DNA of 64,000 nt, from positions 62,001-126,000 of the forward strand of contig NZ_JAPCWE010000008.1 of the NCBI RefSeq assembly GCF_025943985.1, written 5' to 3'. Each line of letters opens with the position of its first letter. Position 1 is the stretch's first letter. Shown piece by piece: positions 36,824 through 64,000 of the stretch. The notes beneath the pieces are model-generated. The model was not told where the DNA came from, made no database searches, and saw only the letters and a program-made list of their open reading frames with translations. Both the position numbers and the translations under genes were made by a program. Source of the DNA: Anaerorudis cellulosivorans (GTDB lineage Bacteria; Bacteroidota; Bacteroidia; Bacteroidales; Dysgonomonadaceae).

Positions 36824-38122
36824 TTATTCATTTAATTCTATATATGTATCATCAGGGTTTGGAGTAGCACCTAACTTCCCACTTTTATATGCATTAAGTA
36901 CATTGGTTGTATCCCGTACTACCGAGCTGTCAAAATCAGCAAGCGAATAGAGCTCCGTTGCGCAATTCTCATCCATGTCTGTAAACCAAATGGCATCATT
37001 TCTGAAAATATCCTTGTTATTTAATATCTCCCTATTATGTGTGGTTGCAATTATTTGTGATTCTTTTGTATTTAACAAAAAAGTAAGCAGGAAATGTTCG
37101 TACAGATCAGGATGTAACGATGACTCCAATTCATCGATTGGGAGAATTACCGAACTTCTTAACCCCTCCGATAAGAGCCCTGCATATCCATAGTATCTTT
37201 TAGTCCCTTCTGACTCTAACCTGAATTGTAGTGGGTATTTTTCCTGATTCACTGTATGTTCTAATCTTAGTTCAACAGTTTTGAACTTTTCATCTACATT
37301 AGGCAGATCTTTAGTTTTATTTGAATTAGCAAATTCTTTCTTCAAAAATTCTAAATAGTGGGGTGGAAGTTTTTCTTCTTTCTCCTGAATTATTATATCA
37401 GATATATGAAAATCAGCCTTTTTTAGTATCTCTATTATATCATTTCTATTAATCTTCCCTTCTGAAATTTTTTCAGTAACATATATTTCTAAACTCGTTC
37501 TAGGCATAACCATAGGCCTCAAGTGAAATCTAAACCATTCAACCACCTGCTTCAATTCTTTAAAATCGATATTAGTTTTCAAATAGCCACCCAAAACAGT
37601 GTTATTCCATAAGGTATTCGCCTCAAGAGCTTTTTCAAAGGTCTTATCAATCTTTATTTTACTGCCAAATGTAATTTCCGTTAATTGATTTGATAAGTCT
37701 GTGGTTCTCTTATAAAGATTAGCCTTATATGGATTATAAAAATAGAGTTCCTCACTTACGATTGCTGTTTTAATAAACTCAACTTCATAAAGATATTTTA
37801 TGTCTTCGTGAATAAATTCGAGAGCTAATAGCGAAGTCTTATTGGGCGTTTCGGGATCAAAAAGAAATGGTTCAAAATGCAATTCATCTGTTTTCTTATC
37901 GTTTGGCTGTAAGACGATATCCCGTAGAAAATCAAGTGCCTTAAGTATTGTTGTCTTACCCGATGCATTTGGCCCGTATATCAAGGCAAGCTTCAAAAGT
38001 CTCATTTCGCCGACGCGCATCACGTATGCATCTTCAAGATGATTGGTTTTTGTGGCCTCGAAAGACAGAGTCTGCCTGTCTCTTATAGAGCCAAAATTCT
38101 GTATGGAAAAATTGATAATCAT
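36824..38122 (-). CDS. RloA/AbiLi-type AAA ATPase
   Basis: A 432-residue ABC/SMC-like ATPase (AAA_15/AAA_21 type). Walker A is GPNASGKT (residues 50-57). The signature region precedes Walker B LPIDELESSLHP (about 335-346), and the switch His is in IIATTHNREIL. With the RloB protein it forms an AbiL-like phage-defence pair. It stands between fnlB and fnlC in the polysaccharide operon, with its own likely promoter, so it looks inserted there. Confidence 0.9.
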   Translation of the reverse strand: MIINFSIQNFGSIRDRQTLSFEATKTNHLEDAYVMRVGEMRLLKLALIYGPNASGKTTILKALDFLRDIVLQPNDKKTDELHFEPFLFDPETPNKTSLLALEFIHEDIKYLYEVEFIKTAIVSEELYFYNPYKANLYKRTTDLSNQLTEITFGSKIKIDKTFEKALEANTLWNNTVLGGYLKTNIDFKELKQVVEWFRFHLRPMVMPRTSLEIYVTEKISEGKINRNDIIEILKKADFHISDIIIQEKEEKLPPHYLEFLKKEFANSNKTKDLPNVDEKFKTVELRLEHTVNQEKYPLQFRLESEGTKRYYGYAGLLSEGLRSSVILPIDELESSLHPDLYEHFLLTFLLNTKESQIIATTHNREILNNKDIFRNDAIWFTDMDENCATELYSLADFDSSVVRDTTNVLNAYKSGKLGATPNPDDTYIELNE

Positions 38123-52734: not shown

Positions 52735-53685
52735 TCAACGGCTATAATTCCCAATCTTAAGATAGTAGTTATCTATCATGTGTTGTTGCTCATCAAGAGT
52801 ACAGAAACGACTCAATTCATTATCCAAAAAACATTTGACTTGAAGATAGAGTCCAGGCTTGAACAACCTGTCTAAATCATCATTTAATACAACAGGATTT
52901 AATTCTAAACGACCAATTTCCTGTATCTGTAATGCTTCCATGGGCTTAAAATACAAACGATGTTTACTTGTGCATATCTCAACAAACCATCGTCCCGGTG
53001 CTTTCCAATTTGCATGGTAACTAAATAAAGCGCCCTTGTCCGTTTTTCCTGCACCAGAAAAGACTGACGCATTCGGATGCCACTCAATGCTACCTGAAGT
53101 AAAGCTGGACATTTCAACGGGGTTTCCTCCCAAATAAAATGCTAAATCAACAACATGCGAAGAATTACCTAAAAACCAATATTTAAAGCGTTCACTTCCG
53201 TCAAACATTGGAGCGATTTTATGTGCCCATTCGGTAAACTCAAAAACAAATGAAGTTACTCCTCCATCTTCTTTAATAATTTCCTGTGCTTTCAATGTGG
53301 AAGCATAGAAACGACGATTGTATGCAAGCAATACGTTTGCGTTTTTTTCTCGTGTTAATTGAACCAAATCGTAAATTTCAGAAGGATTACAGACTCCTGG
53401 TTTCTCTAATAGAATAGTTTTAATTCCATATTTTAACAGCATAGTCGCCGTTAATGATAGAGACTCAACATTTACTGTTACTATTGCATGAGACGGGATT
53501 TCCGGACTAAGCTTGAGAAAATTTTCTAATCCACCTTCAATTGCATCATGCTGTGTAGCCGCAATAAACTTATCAACATTCGTTTTACCTCTGCCTATTG
53601 CAATGTATTCAACATTCAGATTTTTAAGAACTTTTGCATATTCTATGGCAATATTTCCTGTACCGACCAACCATATTTTATTCAT
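52735..53685 (-). CDS. Gfo/Idh/MocA-family oxidoreductase
   Basis: About 316 residues from the ATG at 53685 (MNKIWLVGTGNIAIEYAKVL), preceded by GGGGA; the longer frame start at 53748 would overlap the upstream gene. Rossmann motif VGTGNIA, then LLEKPGVCN (the EKP motif of the family) and NSSHVVDLAFYLGG (catalytic His). It is likely an NAD-dependent nucleotide-sugar or sugar dehydrogenase. A second, divergent member lies immediately upstream; the pair follows the legionaminic acid genes, but substrate is unknown. Confidence 0.83.
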   Translation of the reverse strand: MNKIWLVGTGNIAIEYAKVLKNLNVEYIAIGRGKTNVDKFIAATQHDAIEGGLENFLKLSPEIPSHAIVTVNVESLSLTATMLLKYGIKTILLEKPGVCNPSEIYDLVQLTREKNANVLLAYNRRFYASTLKAQEIIKEDGGVTSFVFEFTEWAHKIAPMFDGSERFKYWFLGNSSHVVDLAFYLGGNPVEMSSFTSGSIEWHPNASVFSGAGKTDKGALFSYHANWKAPGRWFVEICTSKHRLYFKPMEALQIQEIGRLELNPVVLNDDLDRLFKPGLYLQVKCFLDNELSRFCTLDEQQHMIDNYYLKIGNYSR

Positions 53686-53704
53686 ATTATCCCCGATTGT
53701 ATTT

Positions 53705-54673
53705 TTAAGTAATAGGGCAATTGATTGAATCATTTCTCGTAATTGCATTATAGAAATCTAACAATGATGATATCAATGGCAAATGTAATTTCATTGAATC
53801 TTCATATTTAGTCAATTTGATATCTTTATTTAACAAAATAGCCTCGACTACATTACCTGTTAGTTGACTTTGATATGGAACTTGTATTATTTGTGATTTC
53901 CAACTGTTATCACTAAATGAAGCCATATAGCCTTTTACTTCATCAATGATAAATTTTTGATTCTGAGTAACGATTGATACTATTGGTGTTGTAGAAGAAT
54001 TCTCTTGTGAAATAAAATTAAATATATCGCCTCTTTTGGTGAAACCGGTTAGAATACCACAAAATTCAACATACCCTGATCTTTTGCTTGCATATATTTT
54101 TTTATTCAAGCCATTTGTCAATAAGGAATATTCTGTTTGTCCTGTTAAGTAGGAAATAATATCAATAAAATGTATTGAATTGCACCCGAGCCCCCAATCG
54201 CCTCCTGATACATTCAATATTATTTTGTCCTCTTTGCGGAATGCCTCTCTTATTGTATTATAATAATCATACATTCTCCTTGGACAATTAACCCATGCTC
54301 TTATATTATTACTCTTGAGCAAATTATTAACATTGTGGTAATATTTTTCATTTTGAAAAAGTACCTTTTCAAATACAATATTTCTTACATTCTTTTTTTT
54401 GATTAGCTCGTTAGTAATTGCGAATCGTGGTGCTGAACCTGTCGCAATGATAACTAAATCCAATTCGTTACTTAAATCATCAAGTGATGATAAAAAACTT
54501 ACGTCTTTTTTATATTGATTATCTCCAACTTCATTATAACGATTCTCTGCGTTCTTTAAAGATTCTAAGTTAGAATCTACTACCTCAATTGATAACTCTA
54601 AACTTGCCGTCTTGATACCCTGTAAATGGCGGCTACCAAGTTGACCTGAACCAACGATTGCTATATTATACAT
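53705..54673 (-). CDS. Gfo/Idh/MocA-like oxidoreductase, divergent
   Basis: A 322-residue protein with IAIVGSGQLGSRHLQGI at the N-terminus, IATGSAPRFAI, and VFEKVLF where the family has EKP. CNSIHFIDIISYLTG provides the family His-Asp. The EKP proline is replaced by Val, so the active site differs from the usual. It overlaps the cytidylyltransferase gene by 8 bases, tying it to the nonulosonate operon. Possibly it modifies the CMP-sugar or a precursor. Confidence 0.78.
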   Translation of the reverse strand: MYNIAIVGSGQLGSRHLQGIKTASLELSIEVVDSNLESLKNAENRYNEVGDNQYKKDVSFLSSLDDLSNELDLVIIATGSAPRFAITNELIKKKNVRNIVFEKVLFQNEKYYHNVNNLLKSNNIRAWVNCPRRMYDYYNTIREAFRKEDKIILNVSGGDWGLGCNSIHFIDIISYLTGQTEYSLLTNGLNKKIYASKRSGYVEFCGILTGFTKRGDIFNFISQENSSTTPIVSIVTQNQKFIIDEVKGYMASFSDNSWKSQIIQVPYQSQLTGNVVEAILLNKDIKLTKYEDSMKLHLPLISSLLDFYNAITRNDSINCPIT

Positions 54674-55358
54674 TTAAATTACTGTTTTTCATTTTCAAAA
54701 TTGATTCAACGATAATCAAATCTAATGGAATATCTATGTCAAATGACGTTAGTTCATCCATAACATACTTCTTTTTTTTAGTAAAGCTACTCAACCCTTT
54801 TTCTTTTAACCGTTCAACATTAATTATATAAATTGCCCCATTATACTCGTAATATGACGAAAAGTCTTGTCTTCTTGAACCAGATTTATTAAAACAAAAT
54901 TCAAGATAACCGTTATCATTTTCAAAACATAGTACTGAAGCAGCATGAGATTTTTTTACCGAAACCACCATATCTAGTTTATTATCATATAAATCCATCG
55001 CTTCTCTTACATGCTGAACAGTCCTCAGGGGTGATGTCGGTTGCAGCAAAATAATGACTTCATAATTTATACCTTTAGATTGATAGAAATTTAATGCATG
55101 AAGTAAAACATCATTGGTTGTGGCTGTATCTGTAGATAAATGATCCGGGCGTTTGAATGGAACCTTTAAACCATAATCTTCTACAGCTTGAATAATTTCT
55201 GCATCATCCGAAGAAACACAAATATTTTCGTCAGAAGTCAGTTGTCGAGCCACATCAATAGTATAATATATTAAAGGTTTACCATTTAAAGGTTTTATAT
55301 TTTTATGTGGAATTCCCTTGCTTCCTCCCCTGGCAGGAATAATGTATAATATCTTCAT
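54666..55358 (-). CDS. legF: CMP-legionaminic (acylneuraminic) acid synthetase
   Basis: A 230-residue cytidylyltransferase of the NeuA/LegF/PseF family: IIPARGGSKGIPHKNIKPLN at residues 5-24 (signature), ILLQPTSPLRTVQHV, and the C-terminal IDIPLDL metal-binding Asp pair. It activates the nonulosonic acid with CTP. Context (LegB, LegC, LegG, LegI, PtmE-like) favours legionaminic acid over sialic or pseudaminic acid. Confidence 0.88.
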   Translation of the reverse strand: MKILYIIPARGGSKGIPHKNIKPLNGKPLIYYTIDVARQLTSDENICVSSDDAEIIQAVEDYGLKVPFKRPDHLSTDTATTNDVLLHALNFYQSKGINYEVIILLQPTSPLRTVQHVREAMDLYDNKLDMVVSVKKSHAASVLCFENDNGYLEFCFNKSGSRRQDFSSYYEYNGAIYIINVERLKEKGLSSFTKKKKYVMDELTSFDIDIPLDLIIVESILKMKNSNLNV

Positions 55359-55364
55359 ATTTAT

Positions 55365-56408
55365 TTATAAATGTTTGACCAATTCCTGTGCTTTCTGATA
55401 ATCTTCCGGTTTACCAATATCAATCCAATAACCGGTTAAAGGATATCTGATAACTTTATGATTTTTTGCGATAAGCATTTCCATAAAGTCAGTTGCATTA
55501 TAAAAAACATTATCAGGAACAAGATCCAATAATTTTTTCTTAATTAAATATATCCCGGCATTCGCATAGTAATTGTAAATAGGTTTCTCCTTAACACCCT
55601 GAATATCTCTTCCTGCCAATTCAAAAATGCCGTAAGGTACATTCACGGAATATGGGACCGCGGCGACTGACATATCGGCATCGTTTTCCAGAAAATGCAA
55701 ATAAAAATCTTCGTAATCAATATTGGTGAACAGGTCGGAATTCATCACCAAAACGGTGTCGTTAACAAATGAATCCACAAATTTCACGGAACCCATAGTA
55801 CCCAGGAATTTTGGTTCCCGAACGCATTTTACCTGAACATGTTGCCTTCTTTCCTTATAATGCTCTTCTAATTGTTCACCTAAATAATTAACCGTAACAT
55901 TGATATTTTCCAATCCATAACTGATCAGTGCATCTACGTTATAGTCAATAATGCATTTATCTCCTACCTTCAATAACGGTTTAGGTGTGGTTAATGTCAA
56001 AGGTCGCAATCGCTCACCTTTGCCACCCGCCATGATCACCGCATCAATAGGAAGTATAGATGAAATCTTATTCAATGCATATACTTTCTCAATTTTACCC
56101 TCTTTACTAAGATACGGAAGCAGTTTGATACCCCTCTCCTTGTATTCTTTGATGAGTGATACCTCCTTTTTTTCATCCGAAATAAATCTAAAGGAAGTAT
56201 GCATAATATCTTTCACGCTATCTGTCAATTGTTTTCCTTGGATCAGTCCGCGACGCACATCTCCGTCTGTAAGAGAGCCCACCATTTTCCCTTCCTGACT
56301 GACGATAATTAATGTAAGAATATCGTCTGAGTTTTTGTCTAATGCAATCAATGCATCTTTGATTGTGGCCGAGTCAGGCAAAATATATCGTTGAAAATCT
56401 ATTATCAT
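55365..56408 (-). CDS. ptmE: PtmE-like sugar-1-phosphate nucleotidyltransferase with CBS domains
   Basis: A 347-residue protein. Two CBS motifs (residues about 10-115; GSLTDGDVRRGLI is a typical CBS turn) precede a nucleotidyltransferase domain with VIMAGGKGERLRPLTLTTPK. In Campylobacter PtmE activates glucosamine-1-phosphate with GTP to open a GDP-based legionaminic acid pathway; the same order next to legG and legF here argues for the same role. It overlaps legG by 4 bases. Confidence 0.87.
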   Translation of the reverse strand: MIIDFQRYILPDSATIKDALIALDKNSDDILTLIIVSQEGKMVGSLTDGDVRRGLIQGKQLTDSVKDIMHTSFRFISDEKKEVSLIKEYKERGIKLLPYLSKEGKIEKVYALNKISSILPIDAVIMAGGKGERLRPLTLTTPKPLLKVGDKCIIDYNVDALISYGLENINVTVNYLGEQLEEHYKERRQHVQVKCVREPKFLGTMGSVKFVDSFVNDTVLVMNSDLFTNIDYEDFYLHFLENDADMSVAAVPYSVNVPYGIFELAGRDIQGVKEKPIYNYYANAGIYLIKKKLLDLVPDNVFYNATDFMEMLIAKNHKVIRYPLTGYWIDIGKPEDYQKAQELVKHL

Positions 56409-57562
56409 TGTATATCGTAAAATGTTTTGCGGCTTAGTCTTTCAGGTGAAAGGGTCTTGAATATTTTCATGATTTGGTGTGAAGCTGTGCCATTTCCATA
56501 AGGATTAATAACATTCTCGATTTTCTTCCTGAACTCTTCACTCTTTACTTTTTGGAAAGCTCCGACAATTTCTTCTTTATTAGCATTGCAATTGATGATA
56601 CTTTCTGCTTGAATCCTTCCTTTTTGTCTGTCTCCGATATTTATCGTGGCTGTTGGAATTGATGGAGCTTCAACAATACCACTAGAACTGTTACCTAAAA
56701 CAGCCGTGACCTGAGTCATCACAGAAAGGTAACGTAACGTTCCTAAAGAAGTAAATAATACGGATTTCTCCGGGTGTTTATTCACATAGGTTTCCATCAT
56801 TTGGTTGATGATGCGGCCGTTAGTATCGGCATTGGCTTTTGTAAAAATAAAAAAACTATCGGTTTGCATATCAATAGCTTGAAGCAATTCATTGAATTGT
56901 ACTTCAACTGATTGATGGGATAATGTCTCCGGATGGAATCCCACCAAATAATTAAACCGGTTAAAAGTGATATGTAATTCTTTCTCTAATTCATCTCTGG
57001 AAAGAAGTTGTAAAGATCGGATGTTATCCAAACCAATGGCACCTACGTTATAAACTCTTTCAGGCTGTTCTCCAAGCTGGATTACTCGCTGACGATATAC
57101 TTCAGTAGATGTAAAATGCAAAGCACTCATTTTGGTGATGGCGTGACGGATAGCATCGTCGTATGCGCCTTCCGTCAATTCACCTCCATGAATGTGCGCA
57201 ATGGGTATACGAAAAATAAGAGCTGTGGATGCTACAGCCAGCATCTCATACCGGTCACCCAAAATAACCAGTAAATCGGGAGATAATTGTTTGAATGCAT
57301 CGGCATAACCAATCATTCCCAATCCCATGGATTTGGTAATTCCCTCCTCGGTATCAGATGAAAGCAACATTTCCACTTTTGCATCGATCCTATACCCATC
57401 AAACTCTATCTGCCGATAAGTAAGTCCGAATTCAGGCGATAAATGAGCGCCCGTAACGAGGAGTTGTAATGTGAATTCATCATCGGCACTAATCTTTTCA
57501 ATCAGGGGTTTTAGTAATCCATATTCAGCTCTTGTACCTGTTATGATGCAGATCTTTTTCAT
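56405..57562 (-). CDS. legG: Hydrolysing nucleotide-sugar 2-epimerase, LegG/NeuC-like
   Basis: A 385-residue NeuC-family epimerase: CIITGTRAEYGLLKPLIEKI start, HIHGGELTEGAYDDAIRHAI, GNSSSGIVEAPSI. It would release 2,4-diacylamino-2,4,6-trideoxymannose from the NDP-bacillosamine-type precursor for LegI. It follows legI directly (58573 to 57563) with no gap. Confidence 0.88.
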   Translation of the reverse strand: MKKICIITGTRAEYGLLKPLIEKISADDEFTLQLLVTGAHLSPEFGLTYRQIEFDGYRIDAKVEMLLSSDTEEGITKSMGLGMIGYADAFKQLSPDLLVILGDRYEMLAVASTALIFRIPIAHIHGGELTEGAYDDAIRHAITKMSALHFTSTEVYRQRVIQLGEQPERVYNVGAIGLDNIRSLQLLSRDELEKELHITFNRFNYLVGFHPETLSHQSVEVQFNELLQAIDMQTDSFFIFTKANADTNGRIINQMMETYVNKHPEKSVLFTSLGTLRYLSVMTQVTAVLGNSSSGIVEAPSIPTATINIGDRQKGRIQAESIINCNANKEEIVGAFQKVKSEEFRKKIENVINPYGNGTASHQIMKIFKTLSPERLSRKTFYDIQ

Positions 57563-58573
57563 TTATAATTCGATGAGTTCGTCTTCCTCAAAATCACGCA
57601 CCGCTGTCTTTCCAATCACTTCATCCCATTGCATGGGTGATATCCCTGTTCCGGGCCGTTTCACACCAATATTTTCCTCGGAGAAAATTTCGCCTTGATG
57701 TATTTTCTTTATTGCGACAATGCTTTTGCGGGCAATTGCAATATTCTTTTGTTCTGATGGCGAAACTTCCTTAAGTCCGCTTCCCGCTAATGCCTTTTCA
57801 ATATTCCGGATTGCGGAAACCATTGCCTTCAATTCACCGGGTTCCAACGATGCTTTATGATCGGGTCCTTTCATACTTTTATCCAAAGTAAAATGTTTTT
57901 CGATCATAGTAGCACCCAAAGCAACAGCAGCAATGGGGACTTCAATCCCCAATGTGTGATCGGAATAACCAATTTTTGTGCCAAATACATGCTGAAGATG
58001 AAGCATCGCCTTCAAATTCACATCTTCCATTGGAGTGGGATACTCGGTGTTGCAGTGAAGTATGGTTATATTTTCTTTATTGATCCCCGCATGGGTAAAT
58101 ACTTCCATTGCATCCTTGATTTCCGCTATCGTTGCCATTCCGGTGGAAAGTATCACTTTTGAAAAAAGAGATGCTGCCTTGCGCAAATAGGGAAGATTGG
58201 TGATTTCCCCCGAAGGGATTTTAACAATATCTAATCCAATGCTCGCAAGATATTCCAATGAATCGAGATCAAAAGCGGTAGAGAAGAAATTAATATTCCT
58301 TTTTTTACAATAATCTATTATTTGTTCGTGTTGTTCTTGGGTCAACTCGAGTTTTTTCAGCATTTCCAATTGACTTTCTCCTGAATTCTGTGAATTTTGA
58401 ATTTGATAATCGGCTTTTTTTGCTGAAATAGAAACAGCCTTTTCAGCTTTGAATGTTTGAAATTTTATATAGTCTGCACCTGCATCTGCGGCAGCATCAA
58501 CAAGTCTGAAAGCATTTTCAGTGCTTCCATTGTGATTAACGCCTGCTTCTGCTATGATTATCACGTGTTCCAT
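57563..58573 (-). CDS. legI: N-acyl legionaminic acid synthase, LegI/NeuB-like
   Basis: A 336-residue NeuB-family protein. The TIM-barrel domain opens with IIAEAGVNHNGSTENAFRLV and contains YIKFQTFK, IPSGEITN and GYSDHTLG. The C-terminal antifreeze/SAF-like domain starts near IARKSIVAIKKIHQGE with RPGTGISP. It condenses the 6-deoxy-mannosamine derivative with phosphoenolpyruvate to form the nonulosonic acid. Its substrate N-acyl groups may be set by the ACP/KAS III cassette just upstream. Confidence 0.9.
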   Translation of the reverse strand: MEHVIIIAEAGVNHNGSTENAFRLVDAAADAGADYIKFQTFKAEKAVSISAKKADYQIQNSQNSGESQLEMLKKLELTQEQHEQIIDYCKKRNINFFSTAFDLDSLEYLASIGLDIVKIPSGEITNLPYLRKAASLFSKVILSTGMATIAEIKDAMEVFTHAGINKENITILHCNTEYPTPMEDVNLKAMLHLQHVFGTKIGYSDHTLGIEVPIAAVALGATMIEKHFTLDKSMKGPDHKASLEPGELKAMVSAIRNIEKALAGSGLKEVSPSEQKNIAIARKSIVAIKKIHQGEIFSEENIGVKRPGTGISPMQWDEVIGKTAVRDFEEDELIEL

Positions 58574-58576
58574 TCA

Positions 58577-58780
58577 TTATAATTTTATTTTTAATAAGGC
58601 AGGATTTCCCGAATATATCCCTTTTTGCTTAAGATCTTTTCTAACCGTAGATCCGGCACCTATGACACACTCTTCTACAATTTCCAAGCCATTAATTATT
58701 ACGGATTGACTTCCAAAAAAAGTACCGCGCCCTATCTTGCAATTACCATTTATCATTGCCCCTGTGGATATATGACAATA
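58577..58780 (-). pseudogene. C-terminal fragment of a hexapeptide-repeat acyltransferase
   Basis: The minus strand reads YCHISTGAMINGNCKIGRGT, then FFGSQSVIINGLEIVEECVI and GAGSTVRKDL, ending GNPALLKIKL and a stop. This is a left-handed beta-helix acyltransferase end closely similar in pattern to the intact gene at 58859-59491 (ends GNPAVKLKY). An in-frame TGA lies just before the fragment, and the N-terminal half is missing. A tandem duplicate has probably decayed. Confidence 0.75.
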
Positions 58781-58858: not shown

Positions 58859-59491
58859 TCAATATTTTAATTTTACTGCGGGATTTCCAATATATGTGCC
58901 ACTTTTCTTAATGTTTTTTATCACTAAACTAGATGCGCCAATAAGATTGTCATCGCATATTTGGATGTTTTGTAAAATGACAGAGTTGACACCAAATAAA
59001 TTGTTATTTTCAATTTTTACATTTCCTGAAATATTGCACGAAGTATTAAATTGATTATTATTTCCAATTGTAACATCGTGACCAACAAGAACACCAATAT
59101 TAAATCTATTAAAAGAGCCTATTTTTATGTTATCAGTAAATATACAATTGTAAGATATAATATTCCCTTTTCCTAAAATACTTTTCCCGGAAAAAATTGT
59201 ATTTGGATGTATTATATTGGGGAATGAACAAATGTTATTAAATTTATTGATTATATTTATTGTAATCATTGGATCCCCAATAGCTATTGCAGCGTTCGGT
59301 TTATTATTTTTACAAATATTTACAAATTGATTTTCTGAAATTATTGAATAAGATTTATTATTTAAGATTACGACAGCATTTGAATTTTCTTTATCTACAA
59401 ATCCTTTTATAGAGAATTCATTTAATTCGTTAATTAGTAGAGCAACTTCTCTTGCGTAGCCGCTAGCGCCAAATATATATATATCTTTCAT
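58859..59491 (-). CDS. NeuD/PglD/LegH-type hexapeptide N-acyltransferase
   Basis: About 210 residues from the ATG at 59491 (MKDIYIFGASGYAREVALLI), which overlaps the ketosynthase stop (TAATG). An N-terminal Rossmann-like sugar-binding part (FGASGYAREV) and a left-handed beta-helix (VGHDVTIGNNNQFNTSCNIS; VLVGH holds the catalytic His) are typical of PglD/NeuD. In legionaminic acid pathways LegH N-acylates the C4 amine of the precursor. Coupling to an ACP/KAS III cassette suggests that its donor may be an acyl-ACP or hydroxyacyl group. Confidence 0.85.
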   Translation of the reverse strand: MKDIYIFGASGYAREVALLINELNEFSIKGFVDKENSNAVVILNNKSYSIISENQFVNICKNNKPNAAIAIGDPMITINIINKFNNICSFPNIIHPNTIFSGKSILGKGNIISYNCIFTDNIKIGSFNRFNIGVLVGHDVTIGNNNQFNTSCNISGNVKIENNNLFGVNSVILQNIQICDDNLIGASSLVIKNIKKSGTYIGNPAVKLKY

Positions 59492-60489
59492 TATTGAATT
59501 TTTATGATTGTAGCACCCCACGAATATCCCACTCCAAACCCTGCCAATAGAATGTTTCCTTTCAGATTGTTTGTTTTCATTTCTTCATACATCACGATAG
59601 GAAGGGTTGAAGAAACCGTATTACCCACTTCACGCATAAAATAGGGGAATTTCGATTCTTCTATTTTCAATTTTTTTCGTAGATAGTTCAACATGAATTT
59701 ATTGGCCTGATGGAATATAAACGAGTCCACTTCTTCAAAGGGAATATCGTTTTTCTTTAATGTATCTTCTATTAAAGGCGGTACGGCTTTTATGGTGAAA
59801 TTGAATATTTCGGCGCCGTTCATGTATAAATGATTTGAAGATATGGGATTGCCGTTTTCATCAAATTTTACATCATCGGCTTTTTCGCGATTTCGCATTC
59901 CACCCGTTTTTACGATAAGATTTTTTGCTCCTTTACCGTCCGTACCCAAACTAAAGTTTCCGATTTCGGCAAATCCGTCAGTTGAGATCAACGTTGCCGA
60001 ACCTGCATCGCCAAATAGTGTTCTGTTTCCTTTATCTTTAGGGTGCAAAAATTTGGAATACGTTTCCCCTGTGAGAAGCAAAATGTTGTTGGCAATACCT
60101 CCCAACAATAACCCTTTCGCCAACGAAAGGCCATAAACATATCCCGAGCAGCCCAAATTAAAATCCAATGCACCGCATGAAGTGGGTATTTTTAATTTTT
60201 TTTGAATTAGGCATGCCGATGTGGGTAAAAAATAATCGGGACTTTGTGTACAAAACAGGATAAAGTCGATCGAACTTTTATCGATATCGTATTCTGCGAA
60301 TAATTTTTCAGCCGCTTTTGTTGCCAAATCAGCCGATGTTTCGTCGGGTTTGGCAATATGGCGTTGATCGATTCCCACTTTATTGACAATTTTATCCACG
60401 CTCCATTCCGGGAACTCTTTTATCAACTCTTCATTGGTTACTACTGTTTCCGGCAAATAATAGCTGATGGCTTTGATATATGCTTTCAT
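59491..60489 (-). CDS. KAS III (FabH)-like 3-oxoacyl-ACP synthase, second copy
   Basis: About 332 residues from the ATG at 60489 (MKAYIKAISYYLPE). The full Cys-His-Asn triad is present: C114 in LGCSGYVYG, H260 in FIFHQANKFM, N290 in REVGNTVSSTLP. These enzymes start chains by condensing an acyl-CoA with malonyl-ACP. It sits 4 bases after the SDR reductase gene and overlaps the acyltransferase start. Since housekeeping fabH is normally elsewhere, a specialised role in the polysaccharide pathway is likely. Its sequence differs clearly from the other KAS III copy at 61252-62308. Confidence 0.9.
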   Translation of the reverse strand: MKAYIKAISYYLPETVVTNEELIKEFPEWSVDKIVNKVGIDQRHIAKPDETSADLATKAAEKLFAEYDIDKSSIDFILFCTQSPDYFLPTSACLIQKKLKIPTSCGALDFNLGCSGYVYGLSLAKGLLLGGIANNILLLTGETYSKFLHPKDKGNRTLFGDAGSATLISTDGFAEIGNFSLGTDGKGAKNLIVKTGGMRNREKADDVKFDENGNPISSNHLYMNGAEIFNFTIKAVPPLIEDTLKKNDIPFEEVDSFIFHQANKFMLNYLRKKLKIEESKFPYFMREVGNTVSSTLPIVMYEEMKTNNLKGNILLAGFGVGYSWGATIIKIQ

Positions 60490-60493
60490 AGTT

Positions 60494-61240
60494 TTATAAT
60501 AATGTATATCCCCCATCAATTAGCAGATTCGAACCCGTTATCCATTCGGCGGCATCCGACAACAAATAGATAACGGCATAAGCCACTTCCTCCGGTTTGC
60601 CGTATCTTTTGAGGGGATAACGTTTCATATCTTCCTTTAATTGCTCTTGTGTTATTTTTCCTTCCGAAAATATATGGGTATCGATCATTCCCGGATTCAC
60701 GCAATTAACGCGTATTCCTTTGGGAGCCAAATCCAAAGCCATTGCTTTTGCAAGTCCGTTGATTGCACCTTTTGAGGATGAATAAATAGAACCCGCAACC
60801 GCCGAACAATATACTCCCGACACAGAAGAAATGAAAACGATAGAAGCGCCTTTTTGCAGTTTCTTCGATTTAACCAATAATCGCGAAAGCTCGGTCGGAG
60901 CAAAAAAGTTGACTTCCATCACTTCTTCAAAATCTTTTCGTTCGGCAAAAGGGAAAGGCAATACTTTTGTTAAACCGGCACAATTTACCAATCCGTTTAG
61001 TGATGTTATGTTTTCACTTAAATTTTGCACGTCATCTGAATTGGAAAGATCGGCAACTATATAATCCGGCTTATTCCCTTCCATTTGGGCATGTGTCTCT
61101 TTTAAGCGTTCTTCATTGCGTCCGGTAATAATGACCGATGCTCCCATTTTGGAACTCTCTATTGCAATAGCTCTCCCGATACCCGACGAAGCACCGGTTA
61201 CCAATATGGTTTTATTTTCAAGAGAAAAAGGATTGTACAT
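60494..61240 (-). CDS. FabG-like short-chain dehydrogenase (3-oxoacyl-ACP reductase)
   Basis: A 248-residue classical SDR: VTGASSGIGRAIAIE at residue 14, NCAGL in place of the NAG motif, FISSVSG with catalytic Ser, YSSSKGAI (YxxxK), and the C-terminal GSNLLIDGGYTLL. Between two KAS III genes and an ACP, reduction of a 3-ketoacyl-ACP to 3-hydroxyacyl-ACP is the likely reaction. It overlaps nothing and lies 11 bases after the upstream KAS III. Confidence 0.88.
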   Translation of the reverse strand: MYNPFSLENKTILVTGASSGIGRAIAIESSKMGASVIITGRNEERLKETHAQMEGNKPDYIVADLSNSDDVQNLSENITSLNGLVNCAGLTKVLPFPFAERKDFEEVMEVNFFAPTELSRLLVKSKKLQKGASIVFISSVSGVYCSAVAGSIYSSSKGAINGLAKAMALDLAPKGIRVNCVNPGMIDTHIFSEGKITQEQLKEDMKRYPLKRYGKPEEVAYAVIYLLSDAAEWITGSNLLIDGGYTLL

Positions 61241-61251
61241 TTTTTTTGATT

Positions 61252-62308
61252 TTAAATTTCCACTAAATCGGATACGACTATTTCATCTGTTTCAAAATAA
61301 ACGCTTCCCCACGATAAACCTACACCAAAGCCACAAGCGATATGGGATAATCGATTGTTTTCCAATTTATCTCTCATTTCGGTTACCATTGTCAAAGGAA
61401 TGGTTGCACAACTTGTATTTCCAAAGCGTTCGATTGAATAAGGAACTTTTTCTGCAGGAAGATTTAATTTTTTCCTGATCTTTTCGTTCATAAATTTGTT
61501 AGCCTGATGAAAAATAAAGTAATCGACGCTTTCTAAATTCAATTCAAAGTGCTCGGTTAATTCTTTAATACTTGCAGGTGCTTTAGAAATGCCGAAAGTA
61601 AAAACATCCATCCCTTCCAAAATGAGTTGCAGTTTATTTTTTGAAATACCTTCGTCTATTTTTATTTCTTTAAGGGAATCAAAATTAGTCGGATTACGAA
61701 ATCCACCATCTTCAATTTTAATTACATTGGAACCACTACCATCCGTTTTCAAATTGAACAAGAAATCCCTCCCCCCCCCCTTGAAATTCAAGAGCAGTAG
61801 CACTACCCGCATCGCCGAACAAGGGATAAGTGGTCTTGTCGTTTTTTGAACATGTTTTTGATATGGTATCTCCCGCAAGGAGTAAACCTTTCTTTATATT
61901 GCCATGACTTAACAAGGAAGTGATTACACTAAGTCCGTATACATAGCCGGAGCACCCCAACAAAATATCCAAAGCAAGACAATTTTCAGAAAGACCCAAT
62001 CGTTTTTGCAACAAGGGTGAAGTGGCAGGCAAATGATAATCCGGCGTTTGAGTCACGAATACAAGACAATCTATTTCTTCACGATTCCATTGTAAATCAG
62101 ACAGCAGTTTGTTCGCAGCATGATAACAAAGGTCCGAAGAGCAAATTTCAGGGGAAGCAATCCTTCGGGATATTACACCGGTTGTTTTGCTGAAATTTAA
62201 ACTCTCTTCCTTTGAAAATAAAGGAAAATCGGAACAAAACTCCTCTTGTTTTGGCACACAAGCACTGATGCCTGCTATTTTTACATTCCGGATTGATAAA
62301 AATGCCAT
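61252..62308 (-). pseudogene. KAS III (FabH)-like synthase, out of frame at a run of ten G
   Basis: Two overlapping frames make one 350-residue KAS III. The first (from the ATG at 62308) runs to ALEFQGGG and contains the catalytic Cys (LLGCSGYVYG). The second continues RDFLFNLKTDGSGSN with the catalytic His (FIFHQANKFM) and Asn (ERFGNTSCATIP) to the stop at 61252. They are separated by G10 on the coding strand (61771-61780); nine would restore the frame. The gene is either phase-off, inactivated, or affected by a homopolymer sequencing error. It follows the ACP gene by 5 bases. Confidence 0.85.
61771..61780 (-). repeat. G10 homopolymer tract inside the KAS III gene
   Basis: Ten consecutive C on the plus strand, G on the coding strand, preceded by CCT. 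It is the longest G/C homopolymer in the window. Copy number 9 or 12 gives an open frame; 10 gives a truncated protein of 190 codons. Confidence 0.9.
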
Positions 62309-62313
62309 CGAGA

Positions 62314-62544
62314 TTATTTTTTACTTTTTACGATCCCGAATAAATCTTCGATAGTATTGGCAGAACGGATATCGTCTCCTTTTAATGCCACCCCATATTG
62401 TTCATCCACCATTGCAATAATCGACAATGCCAGTAAAGAGCTCCATTCGTCGAGGTTTTTAAAAACCGTATCTTTTGTAAATACAGAAGAATCGGTTTCT
62501 TCAAATTGATTGGCAAAATTTGTAATGAATTCTTGTAGTTCCAT
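62314..62544 (-). CDS. Acyl carrier protein
   Basis: A 76-residue ACP. The phosphopantetheine Ser is probably S36 in DEWSSLLALSII, in the position of the DSL motif (Asp replaced by Ser). The last helix EDLFGIVKSK is typical. It would carry the growing acyl chain for the two KAS III enzymes and the SDR in this cassette. It lies 22 bases after legC and 5 bases before the frameshifted KAS III. Confidence 0.88.
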   Translation of the reverse strand: MELQEFITNFANQFEETDSSVFTKDTVFKNLDEWSSLLALSIIAMVDEQYGVALKGDDIRSANTIEDLFGIVKSKK

Positions 62545-62566: not shown

Positions 62567-63712
62567 TTATTTATTTCTTACACTGCTCGGAATATTTATC
62601 ACTCTATCGGCAAACCATTGAGTATTGGCTAAGCCGTCATTTTCACAATCTTTGAACATGGGGAGGCGGTTCATCAATTCCCATATCGGACGCGTCATGA
62701 CACCGTTATCGTTGCTGTATTGTAGAAATTCCTGTTGACTCTCTTTATCCTTCATGATAATTGCATTTAGCCAATAGTTGGATCGACAATTTTCGGGTTC
62801 GGTGAAAAAAGTTATGTCGGGATAACTTTCGAAAAAGGTTTTATATTTTTCTGCTGTTTTCCGTTTGTTGGTTATAAAATCATCCAATTGCTCCATTTGA
62901 GCACAACCCAAGGCAGCATTGATATTCGGCATGCGGTAATTATATCCAATATGATCATGCACAAATTCCCAACGATGGGGAACCTTGGCTTGGGTTGTCA
63001 AATGTTTTGCCAGTTTTCCAAGTTTTTCGTCTTGGAAAAGCAACATTCCTCCTCCTCCGGTAGTAATGGTTTTATTGCCGTTAAAGCTGAGAATTCCAAT
63101 TTTCCCGAAAGTACCCGTATGTTGACCTTTATATAAACTGCCTATACTCTCTGCGGCATCTTCCACCATTTCCAAATGGTATTTATTGCAAACTTCTACC
63201 AATTCATCCAAGTGGACGGGGTGACCGAAAGTATGCATCGGAACACATGCTTTAATTCTTCGCTGTGTCTTTTTATTGTAGCACGTCTTATTTTTTATTT
63301 CTGCATTTTCTTTTAACCAAGCCTCAAGAGCAACCGGCGAAAGTCCCATCGTATCTTTATCTACATCGATAAATACAGGAATTGCTCCTATATAACTAAT
63401 AGCATTGCATGTTGCAATGAAAGTAAGGGCTTGGGTTATTATTTCGTCATTCCTTTCCACCCCTACCAACATTAGAGCCAAATGAAGAGCATTGGTACCA
63501 TTCACACATACAACGGCTTTTTTGGTTCCGGTATATTCTTCTATCATTTTTTCAAAACGATCTACGAACTTCCCTACGCTGGAAACGAAAGTGGTATCGA
63601 TGCATTTGTTCAGGTATTTTTTTTCGTTTCCTTTAAATGTCGGTACATGTAAAGGAACGGTTTCCTGTGTGCCATATAAATCATGTATAAAAGCTATAAT
63701 ATTTTCATACAT
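62567..63712 (-). CDS. legC: LegC-type aminotransferase
   Basis: A 381-residue DegT-family aminotransferase of the LegC subgroup: VPLHVPTFKGNEKKYLNKCI with TTFVSSVGKFVDRFE near the N-terminus, NGTNALHLAL, and the PLP Lys in LSFNGNKTITTGGGGML. It aminates C4 of the LegB product. It overlaps legB by 8 bases, so both are co-translated; the ACP gene follows. Confidence 0.92.
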   Translation of the reverse strand: MYENIIAFIHDLYGTQETVPLHVPTFKGNEKKYLNKCIDTTFVSSVGKFVDRFEKMIEEYTGTKKAVVCVNGTNALHLALMLVGVERNDEIITQALTFIATCNAISYIGAIPVFIDVDKDTMGLSPVALEAWLKENAEIKNKTCYNKKTQRRIKACVPMHTFGHPVHLDELVEVCNKYHLEMVEDAAESIGSLYKGQHTGTFGKIGILSFNGNKTITTGGGGMLLFQDEKLGKLAKHLTTQAKVPHRWEFVHDHIGYNYRMPNINAALGCAQMEQLDDFITNKRKTAEKYKTFFESYPDITFFTEPENCRSNYWLNAIIMKDKESQQEFLQYSNDNGVMTRPIWELMNRLPMFKDCENDGLANTQWFADRVINIPSSVRNK

Positions 63713-64000
63713 TGTATATATCGTATTTATATTTTTTCAAATTGTTTTTATCGAGAAACCACTTCACCGTTTCCCGCAAGCCGCCTTCCAATGAGTAGGA
63801 AGGGGTATAACCGGTTAATTGTTTTATTTTGGTGTTGTCGCCCCGTAAACGGAATACTTCGGAGTTTTTGGGACGAAGCCGTTGTTTGTCTTCCACAAAG
63901 GCAATATCGGCGTTCATAATTTTAGCAATCAATTGCAACGTGTTGCGCATGGAAATTTCCTGATTGCCGGCAATATTTATTTCCTGACCGATGGCTTCAT
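63705..64000 (-). CDS. legB: LegB-type nucleotide-sugar 4,6-dehydratase, C-terminal part (continues beyond window)
   Basis: The reading frame is open to the right edge (EAIGQEINIAGNQEISM at the visible start, then RNTLQLIAKIMN). The end LRPKNSEVFRLRGDNTKI, then GYTPSYSLEGGLRETV, is typical of LegB/NAD-dependent dehydratases (family pattern VDKxRxRPxxSEV). It would produce the 4-keto-6-deoxy intermediate used by LegC. Only about 98 residues are inside the window. Confidence 0.87.
   Translation of the reverse strand, partial: EAIGQEINIAGNQEISMRNTLQLIAKIMNADIAFVEDKQRLRPKNSEVFRLRGDNTKIKQLTGYTPSYSLEGGLRETVKWFLDKNNLKKYKYDIYNV

Follow-up and report, generated by a model that had tools for sequence, protein, structure and literature searches.

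The window analysed here is a 64,000-nucleotide stretch of the genome of Anaerorudis cellulosivorans (contig NZ_JAPCWE010000008.1, positions 62,001 to 126,000), and its distal end carries a legionaminic acid (leg) operon in which a five-gene, fatty-acid-type cassette lies between legC and legI. On the minus strand the genes run in the order legC, an acyl carrier protein (ACP), a first β-ketoacyl-ACP synthase III (KAS III), designated KAS1, a FabG-like short-chain dehydrogenase/reductase (SDR), a second KAS III (KAS2), a hexapeptide N-acyltransferase (AT) and legI. They are separated by 22 bases (legC-ACP), 5 bases (ACP-KAS1), 11 bases (KAS1-SDR) and 4 bases (SDR-KAS2), while KAS2 and AT share one base (TAATG). 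The map of open reading frames (ORFs) and the measured gaps thus bore out the order of the genes, their strand and coordinates and the close packing that had been put forward in an initial sequence-only reading of this DNA.

The genes of the operon were assigned by Pfam and NCBIfam models with curated cut-offs. legC (62567..63712, minus strand like all the genes that follow), encoding the C4 aminotransferase, scored 575.7 bits against TIGR04181 (cut-off 420). Beyond the cassette were found legI (57563..58573), a legionaminate synthase of the NeuB family (TIGR03569, 500 bits and above the cut-off, with the PseI model remaining below its own), legG (56405..57562), an NDP-hydrolysing 2-epimerase of the NeuC family (TIGR03568, 493 bits, above the cut-off), a gene combining CBS and nucleotidyltransferase domains (55365..56408; PF00483 above its cut-off, the CBS match below its own) and legF (54666..55358), the CMP-legionaminate synthetase (PF02348). 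The 3' part of legB, the NDP-GlcNAc 4,6-dehydratase, occupies 63705..64000, and the gene is open over 327 amino acids (aa) once the contig is read beyond the window end (L228, 5206-6189; compared loci are designated by L and a number). The canonical CMP-legionaminic acid set of LegB, LegC, LegG, LegI and LegF is therefore present in one cluster, with LegB named by ORF reading alone. The CBS-nucleotidyltransferase, which we take to be PtmE-like, hints that the acceptor may be GDP-linked, and the legionaminic acid route of Campylobacter is a GDP-linked one. In canonical leg loci, including L157, L161 and L163, the order is legB-legC-(LegH)-legI-legG-nucleotidyltransferase-legF, the same in several of them, and LegH is open and no cassette is present. 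In contrast, an open LegH is missing from the window, where only a C-terminal remnant of it was found and the acyltransferase belongs to another clade.

With regard to the cassette itself, the ACP (62314..62544), a dedicated carrier of 76 aa, gave no Pfam or NCBIfam match, and was recognized by its W-S-S-L motif with S36, its position and its kin; its identity was 59-67% in seven of the eight loci matched among the 12 compared, and 40% in L251. KAS1 (61252..62308), which belongs to the 'first KAS' group of KAS III and is 61% identical to KAS1 of L006, is spread over two frames, with the GCSG motif in the first half and HQAN and GNT in the second. The SDR (60494..61240), a 3-oxoacyl-ACP reductase-like protein having the motifs TGASSGIG and Y153xxxK157, was called by Pfam (PF13561/PF00106), with no NCBIfam family among the 25 listed above its cut-off. 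KAS2 (59491..60489) is open, carries C114/H260/N290, scores above the cut-off of the beta-ketoacyl-ACP synthase 3 model and is placed by the trees as well. AT (58859..59491), in which GASGYARE and GHD were identified, was matched by PglD_N and Hexapep and stayed below the NeuD_NnaD cut-off (152.6 vs 160.8 bits). The window consequently holds a contiguous ACP, KAS III, SDR reductase and PglD/VioB-type acyltransferase, with KAS1 out of frame. The idea that the two synthases form an active/inactive pair was set aside, as Cys-His-Asn motifs occur in both. Because the G+C content of AT (26.7%) is lower than that of the other cassette genes (34.6-40.8%), AT may have arrived separately from the rest.

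Between AT and legI, at about 58577..58780, lies a remnant of LegH that the sequence-only reading had missed; it retains about 65 C-terminal codons, the N-terminal part being gone, and was identified by a NeuD profile match and by alignment with LegH. Its 65 residues are 75% identical to residues 148-212 of the L157 LegH and 71% identical to the L161 LegH, as compared with 42% identity to the AT of the window itself. In both L157 and L161 legC, LegH and legI are adjacent, and the window shares 78.6% identity with L157 in legC and 66% in legI. A genome scan with the NeuD model returned AT at 152 bits, the remnant at 70 bits (model positions 141-201 of 202, genome C8:120598-120780) and seven weaker partial matches (25-53 bits), and AT was the sole full-length NeuD/PglD match in the genome.

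The affiliation of AT was assessed by a quick tree of 55 ATs with SH-aLRT support only, built after removal of four entries longer than 260 aa (one of them LegH-labelled), L005 (a duplicate of L123), ORFs shorter than 150 aa and 11 entries judged by eye to be unrelated or partial. The AT of the window paired with that of L036, a second leg locus with cassette genes from Parabacteroides sp., with a support of 99, and the pair fell within a cassette-linked clade (support 97, then 95) that contains 12 of the 17 cassette-adjoining ATs. The remaining five constitute a neighbouring group with one LegH-labelled entry close by, whereas 32 of the 33 LegH-labelled entries stand apart, on the other side of the tree. 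The motifs differ likewise, cassette-linked ATs having mostly GAGG..E and GHD and LegH-labelled ones mostly GGGGHC and EHD/EHE. The earlier designation of the enzyme as a NeuD/LegH-type acyltransferase was hence not upheld, and the notion that AT is simply a renamed LegH was rejected on the tree, the motifs and the remnant. Since a LegH remnant persists, AT is kin to cassette-linked enzymes and the genome holds no other full-length NeuD/PglD match, the cassette probably entered between legC and legH, the front of legH being lost in the process and AT taking over the LegH step. Taken as a whole, we regard it as fairly probable that an ordinary legionaminic acid operon received at this point a portable 'hydroxyacyl arm' module, which replaced LegH. 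Among the 12 loci compared, the closest relatives of the SDR (75%) and KAS2 (74%) were those of L123, whose cassette has no leg operon around it.

To see how far this arrangement extends, relatives of LegI were sought at E 1e-100 across 393 genomes of the order and were found in 49 of them, our own included; the three other genomes of the genus gave no LegI match. A KAS III was present at one (L164) of the 49 other LegI places, which come from 48 genomes; nine of the stretches fetched there, L164 among them, fall short of 10 kb, and others end near LegI, so that some cassettes may be hidden. Two further leg loci with cassette genes, L036 and L127, emerged from other searches. The contig of L036 starts inside the SDR, and the best match to a KAS1 query in that genome is its KAS2 (34%), while L127 has ACP, SDR and KAS2 and has kept its LegH. 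Replacement of LegH is thus apparent in the window and, judged by position, in L036. Cassette genes beside leg genes, looked for elsewhere as the earlier reading had proposed, were found in L164, L036 and L127, and the association is rare (1/49 other loci in the order-wide sample). As side observations, L127 (10907-12935) also encodes a 345-aa protein without a Pfam match and a polysaccharide deacetylase, which perhaps relate to acylation at another nitrogen, and the leg fragment L164 (1-2097) contains the terminal part of a KAS III, an open LegH and, by ORF reading, an LpxD-like hexapeptide gene that apparently spans two frames.

On its own, the cassette is widespread. In a survey of 80 named loci, mainly Bacteroidota by title, that were kept from 297 relatives found with KAS2, ACP-like and SDR-like genes occurred within 3.5 kb of a KAS III in 69 loci, a frequency that takes the cassette beyond chance; two KAS ORFs lay within 4.5 kb in 25 loci, and an AT-like gene lay within 1.5 kb of the ACP in 17. 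In L032 the cassette adjoins PglC-like, PglE-like and PglF-like genes (ORF reading), and PglE/PglF-like genes adjoin it in L249-L251 as well as L032, these loci having been read with PglE/PglF-like queries. The acceptor in such bacillosamine-type clusters is of the same kind as the one proposed here, which would explain how transplantation was possible. NeuB-family genes (125-210 bits to the LegI of the window) were also noticed near cassette KAS genes in L030, L039, L063, L067, L077 and L083, and other nonulosonic acids may likewise carry cassette-made acyl groups.

An ACP and a KAS III occur in a nonulosonic acid glycosylation region of Campylobacter jejuni, where fabH2 and pse/leg genes lie in the neighbourhood of acpP2, and we know of no cassette of the window's composition in the C. 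jejuni flagellar locus. The acpP2 of that glycosylation locus is Cj1299, as the cited account has it (PMC6109747). A close counterpart is wfpC-G of Flavobacterium psychrophilum, which, like the window, combines two KAS, an ACP, a 3-ketoacyl reductase and a PglD-like acyltransferase, the latter predicted to act on a GlcNAc-derived 4-amino sugar; the set was predicted to furnish the 3,5-dihydroxyhexanoyl group of Qui2NAc4N, and that group was proved chemically, according to the cited parts of the report (PMC6519341). Unlike in the window, the sugar there is the Qui2NAc4N of an O-polysaccharide, whose loci carry the accession numbers MK214915-MK214917, and those parts mention no legionaminic acid genes (PMC6519341). 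The viosamine island of Pseudomonas syringae (vioS/vioR/acp/vioB) similarly combines an ACP, a KAS III, a ketoreductase and the N-acyltransferase VioB and gives an N-(3-hydroxybutyryl) product, to which the mass spectra of a vioR mutant relate, but as described it has a single KAS III and concerns dTDP-viosamine on flagellin and not a nonulosonic acid (PMC3927599). In Acinetobacter baumannii, lgaABCHIFG makes 7-N-(R)-3-hydroxybutanoyl-legionaminic acid, and thus a product similar to the one proposed for the window (PMC9676051). Its module, as named in the accounts cited, is however without an ACP, KAS or ketoreductase gene, the donor coming from elsewhere, and its acyl/acetyltransferase LgaI and its LgaH are distinct from LgaE and LgaD (PMC9676051, PMC3628348).

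Partial sets are known from other glycosylation loci. The 18-gene leg cluster of Yersinia ruckeri O1 lists no ACP or KAS in the account cited, which places a phosphopantetheine protein, a 3-oxoacyl-ACP reductase, an AMP-dependent synthetase and a polysaccharide deacetylase among the O1-specific genes elsewhere (PMC5552943). For the group II pseudaminic islands of Aeromonas, the source as cited names an ACP together with a 3-oxoacyl-ACP reductase and no KAS (PMC7874193), and ACP and FabG are reported for enterobacterial flagellin islands too (PMC4875605). A legionaminic acid locus with such a cassette was not found in the literature among the matches listed, subscription papers being mostly outside the scope. 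The claim that no described legionaminic acid pathway has a full cassette therefore stood among these matches, although legionaminic acid with a 7-N-(R)-3-hydroxybutanoyl group is itself known from A. baumannii, as cited above. As judged from its genes, the locus joins known modules in a new way that is rare among leg loci, and it bears a clear scar of the replacement. This suggests that surface sugars may diversify when an entire module for acyl synthesis is brought to bear on a shared 4-amino-sugar intermediate, and a cassette-type AT in place of LegH would offer a testable genome signature for legionaminic acids with unusual N7 groups.

In the proposed pathway, the KAS III enzymes would condense malonyl and acetyl units and the SDR would reduce the products on the dedicated ACP, one round giving 3-hydroxybutyryl-ACP and two rounds 3,5-dihydroxyhexanoyl-ACP. 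AT would transfer the acyl group to the NDP-4-amino-4,6-dideoxy-GlcNAc supplied by LegB and LegC, at its C4 amine, whereupon LegG would remove the nucleotide and epimerise C2, LegI would add pyruvate and LegF would activate the sugar. The end product would be CMP-Leg5Ac7(hydroxyacyl), with the acyl group of the C4 amine ending at C7. Here the substrates, the product, the acyl position and the allotment of rounds to the two KAS are inferred from the gene set and its precedents. The acceptor nitrogen had been given as either the C4 or the C2 amine; C4 now appears the most likely, because AT is the sole full-length NeuD/PglD match and the native LegH is truncated. Acylation of the C2/C5 nitrogen instead, which the deacetylase-family gene and open LegH accompanying the L127 cassette would fit, seems highly improbable, as the cassette of the window comes without a deacetylase and the destruction of LegH would leave C4 without an obvious acyltransferase.

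The identity of the acyl group had been anticipated as 3-hydroxybutyryl or an analogue. It need not be 3-hydroxybutyryl, a two-KAS set having been assigned to 3,5-dihydroxyhexanoyl in the F. psychrophilum account (PMC6519341). In the two precedents there are as many KAS as condensations, a weak but suggestive match, and on this analogy a dihydroxyhexanoyl group is predicted if both KAS work and a hydroxybutyryl group if one does. We tentatively put 3,5-dihydroxyhexanoyl (which adds 130 Da, as computed) first, 3-hydroxybutyryl, with 86 Da as against 42 Da for acetyl, being a slightly less favoured candidate and some other acyl group a rather unlikely one. The synthases were further compared in a quick tree of 115 KAS III, leaving out ORFs shorter than 850 nt and L005. 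The KAS1 group (support 93) comprised 10 of the 11 KAS located between an ACP and an SDR plus some located after an SDR, and the KAS2 group (support 99) contained 45 of the 46 single KAS. In the fetched stretches of L249 and L250, the sole KAS resembled KAS1 of L032 more closely. Since KAS1-like and KAS2-type enzymes each occur as the only KAS of some stretches, starter and extender roles are not readable from the clade; a rule that KAS2 starts and KAS1 extends is not claimed, given the KAS1-like-only stretches (L249, L250, L120).

Several observations weigh against the insertion of a working hydroxyacyl module as proposed above. The likeness to wfpC-G rests on the described gene set and not on wfp sequences (PMC6519341), the assembled KAS1 is out of frame, so that the two-round product may not form, and cassettes with a single KAS2-type enzyme (45/46 'single') exist along with KAS1-like-only stretches. 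Moreover, the AT tree was a quick one, and the program flagged the AT of the window for its odd letter make-up. The best solved relatives of AT include, beside VioB (7txp), 3bss, named UDP-N-acetylbacillosamine N-acetyltransferase, and sequence cannot tell an acyl-ACP from an acetyl-CoA donor. Cassette genes and an open LegH coexist in L127 and L164, so that the proximity of a cassette to leg genes does not by itself imply that LegH was replaced. AT might then be a plain acetyltransferase that replaced LegH, with the ACP, KAS and SDR feeding another sugar or lipid of the locus, as would suit an acetyltransferase among its solved PglD-family relatives and the other sugar genes of this surface polysaccharide locus. 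We consider this improbable, since AT groups with the cassette-linked ATs and overlaps KAS2 by one base, and no second full-length NeuD/PglD match that might receive the cassette product was found in the genome, a search that did not extend to transferases of other families.

The description of the locus as having two KAS III was correct as to family, both enzymes belonging to KAS III, but KAS1 does not form a single open gene. The two frames span 61736-62308 and 61252-61878, with open halves at 61781-62308 and 61252-61770, and the frame changes at a run of ten G (61771..61780, minus strand), the sole G/C run of at least eight in the window. One explanation, an error of sequencing or assembly in the homopolymer of an otherwise intact gene, is a serious possibility: the genome is a draft (2.82 Mb, 38 contigs), homopolymers are error-prone in general, both halves are conserved, the joined halves fall among open first-KAS genes in the tree, and nothing speaks against it except the sequence itself. 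KAS1 could alternatively be a fresh pseudogene, the locus then making what ACP, SDR, KAS2 and AT permit, most simply 3-hydroxybutyryl. This is rather doubtful; it accords with the broken frame as assembled, with the common occurrence of single-KAS cassettes having a KAS2-type enzyme and with the one-KAS vio genes that are described as accompanying 3-hydroxybutyryl (PMC3927599), but KAS1 shows no further damage.

Phase variation at KAS1 is also possible, in that slippage at the G10 run, an intragenic homopolymer whose length shifts the frame, as in contingency genes, might turn KAS1 off and on and so alternate between two-round and one-round acyl groups or between acylated and non-acylated sugar. 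The frame breaks exactly at the run while the halves are otherwise open with conserved motifs, and of the three places in the 2.8-Mb genome with G/C runs of at least nine, only this one lies inside a recognisable gene, the other two being apparently intergenic and overlapped only by short mechanical ORFs. In addition, G8-G9 tracts were found at the 3' end of 13 of 79 cassette SDR genes, as against 0.18% of 15,157 background windows, and L064 and L065, which are 95.3% identical across 13 kb, differ by G8/G9 there. On the other hand, all 16 of the 18 KAS1-type relatives in which the equivalent spot was located are without a run of at least nine, L082 having eight G in frame, and the SDR-end tracts fall in the codons of a Gly-Gly motif and alter only the last SDR residues. 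A G10 somewhere in 2.8 Mb is likewise unsurprising by base composition (about 0.3 such runs expected by our own estimate), and the run was not taken as improbable in itself. On balance we deem a contingency gene unlikely, and the compound proposal, that an imported cassette destroyed and replaced LegH and that G10 now toggles the N7 chain between C6 dihydroxyhexanoyl and C4 hydroxybutyryl or none, quite improbable. If the G tract were to vary, a sialic acid mimic would have an acyl chain of phase-variable length, with a bearing on immune and phage recognition.

The SDR-end tracts are located at L018 7974, L023 7925, L027 7976, L030 7973, L034 1166, L044 8003, L050 5668, L051 3451, L055 7976, L059 5632, L063 7967, L064 7972 and L067 7969; they lie just before KAS2 and shift the SDR stop relative to the KAS2 start. 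The pair L064 7972 (G8) and L065 7971 (G9) derives from two rabbit ('Lapin') metagenome-assembled genomes, in which the SDR ends differently. A G9 run with short tandem repeats (AGGAAGTGT-like) behind it lies at L085 1501 onward (genome C1:97809), apparently in the space that separates two genes.

Beyond the leg operon, the locus starts with a NusG/UpxY-like gene and Wza/Wzc-like genes (ORF reading), contains further along two Gfo/Idh/MocA oxidoreductases followed by rfbF/G/H-like genes (ORF reading for rfb), and includes Polysacc_synt (Wzx-like), Wzy_C and glycosyltransferase domains. With the NusG/UpxY, Wza/Wzc, rfb, Wzx, Wzy and glycosyltransferase genes together, the whole is, as judged from its gene content, a surface polysaccharide locus. 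A scan of 56-64 kb for RNA elements gave no Rfam match at gathering scores. The two oxidoreductases, which follow legF at 52735-54673, overlap and have G+C contents of 36% and 31%. An AAA_21 ATPase gene (36824-38122; Pfam: putative AbiEii toxin family) adjoins the polysaccharide locus, and upstream of it, beyond the window (L228, 8767-13592), two similar Wzc-like genes (ORF reading) are arranged in tandem.

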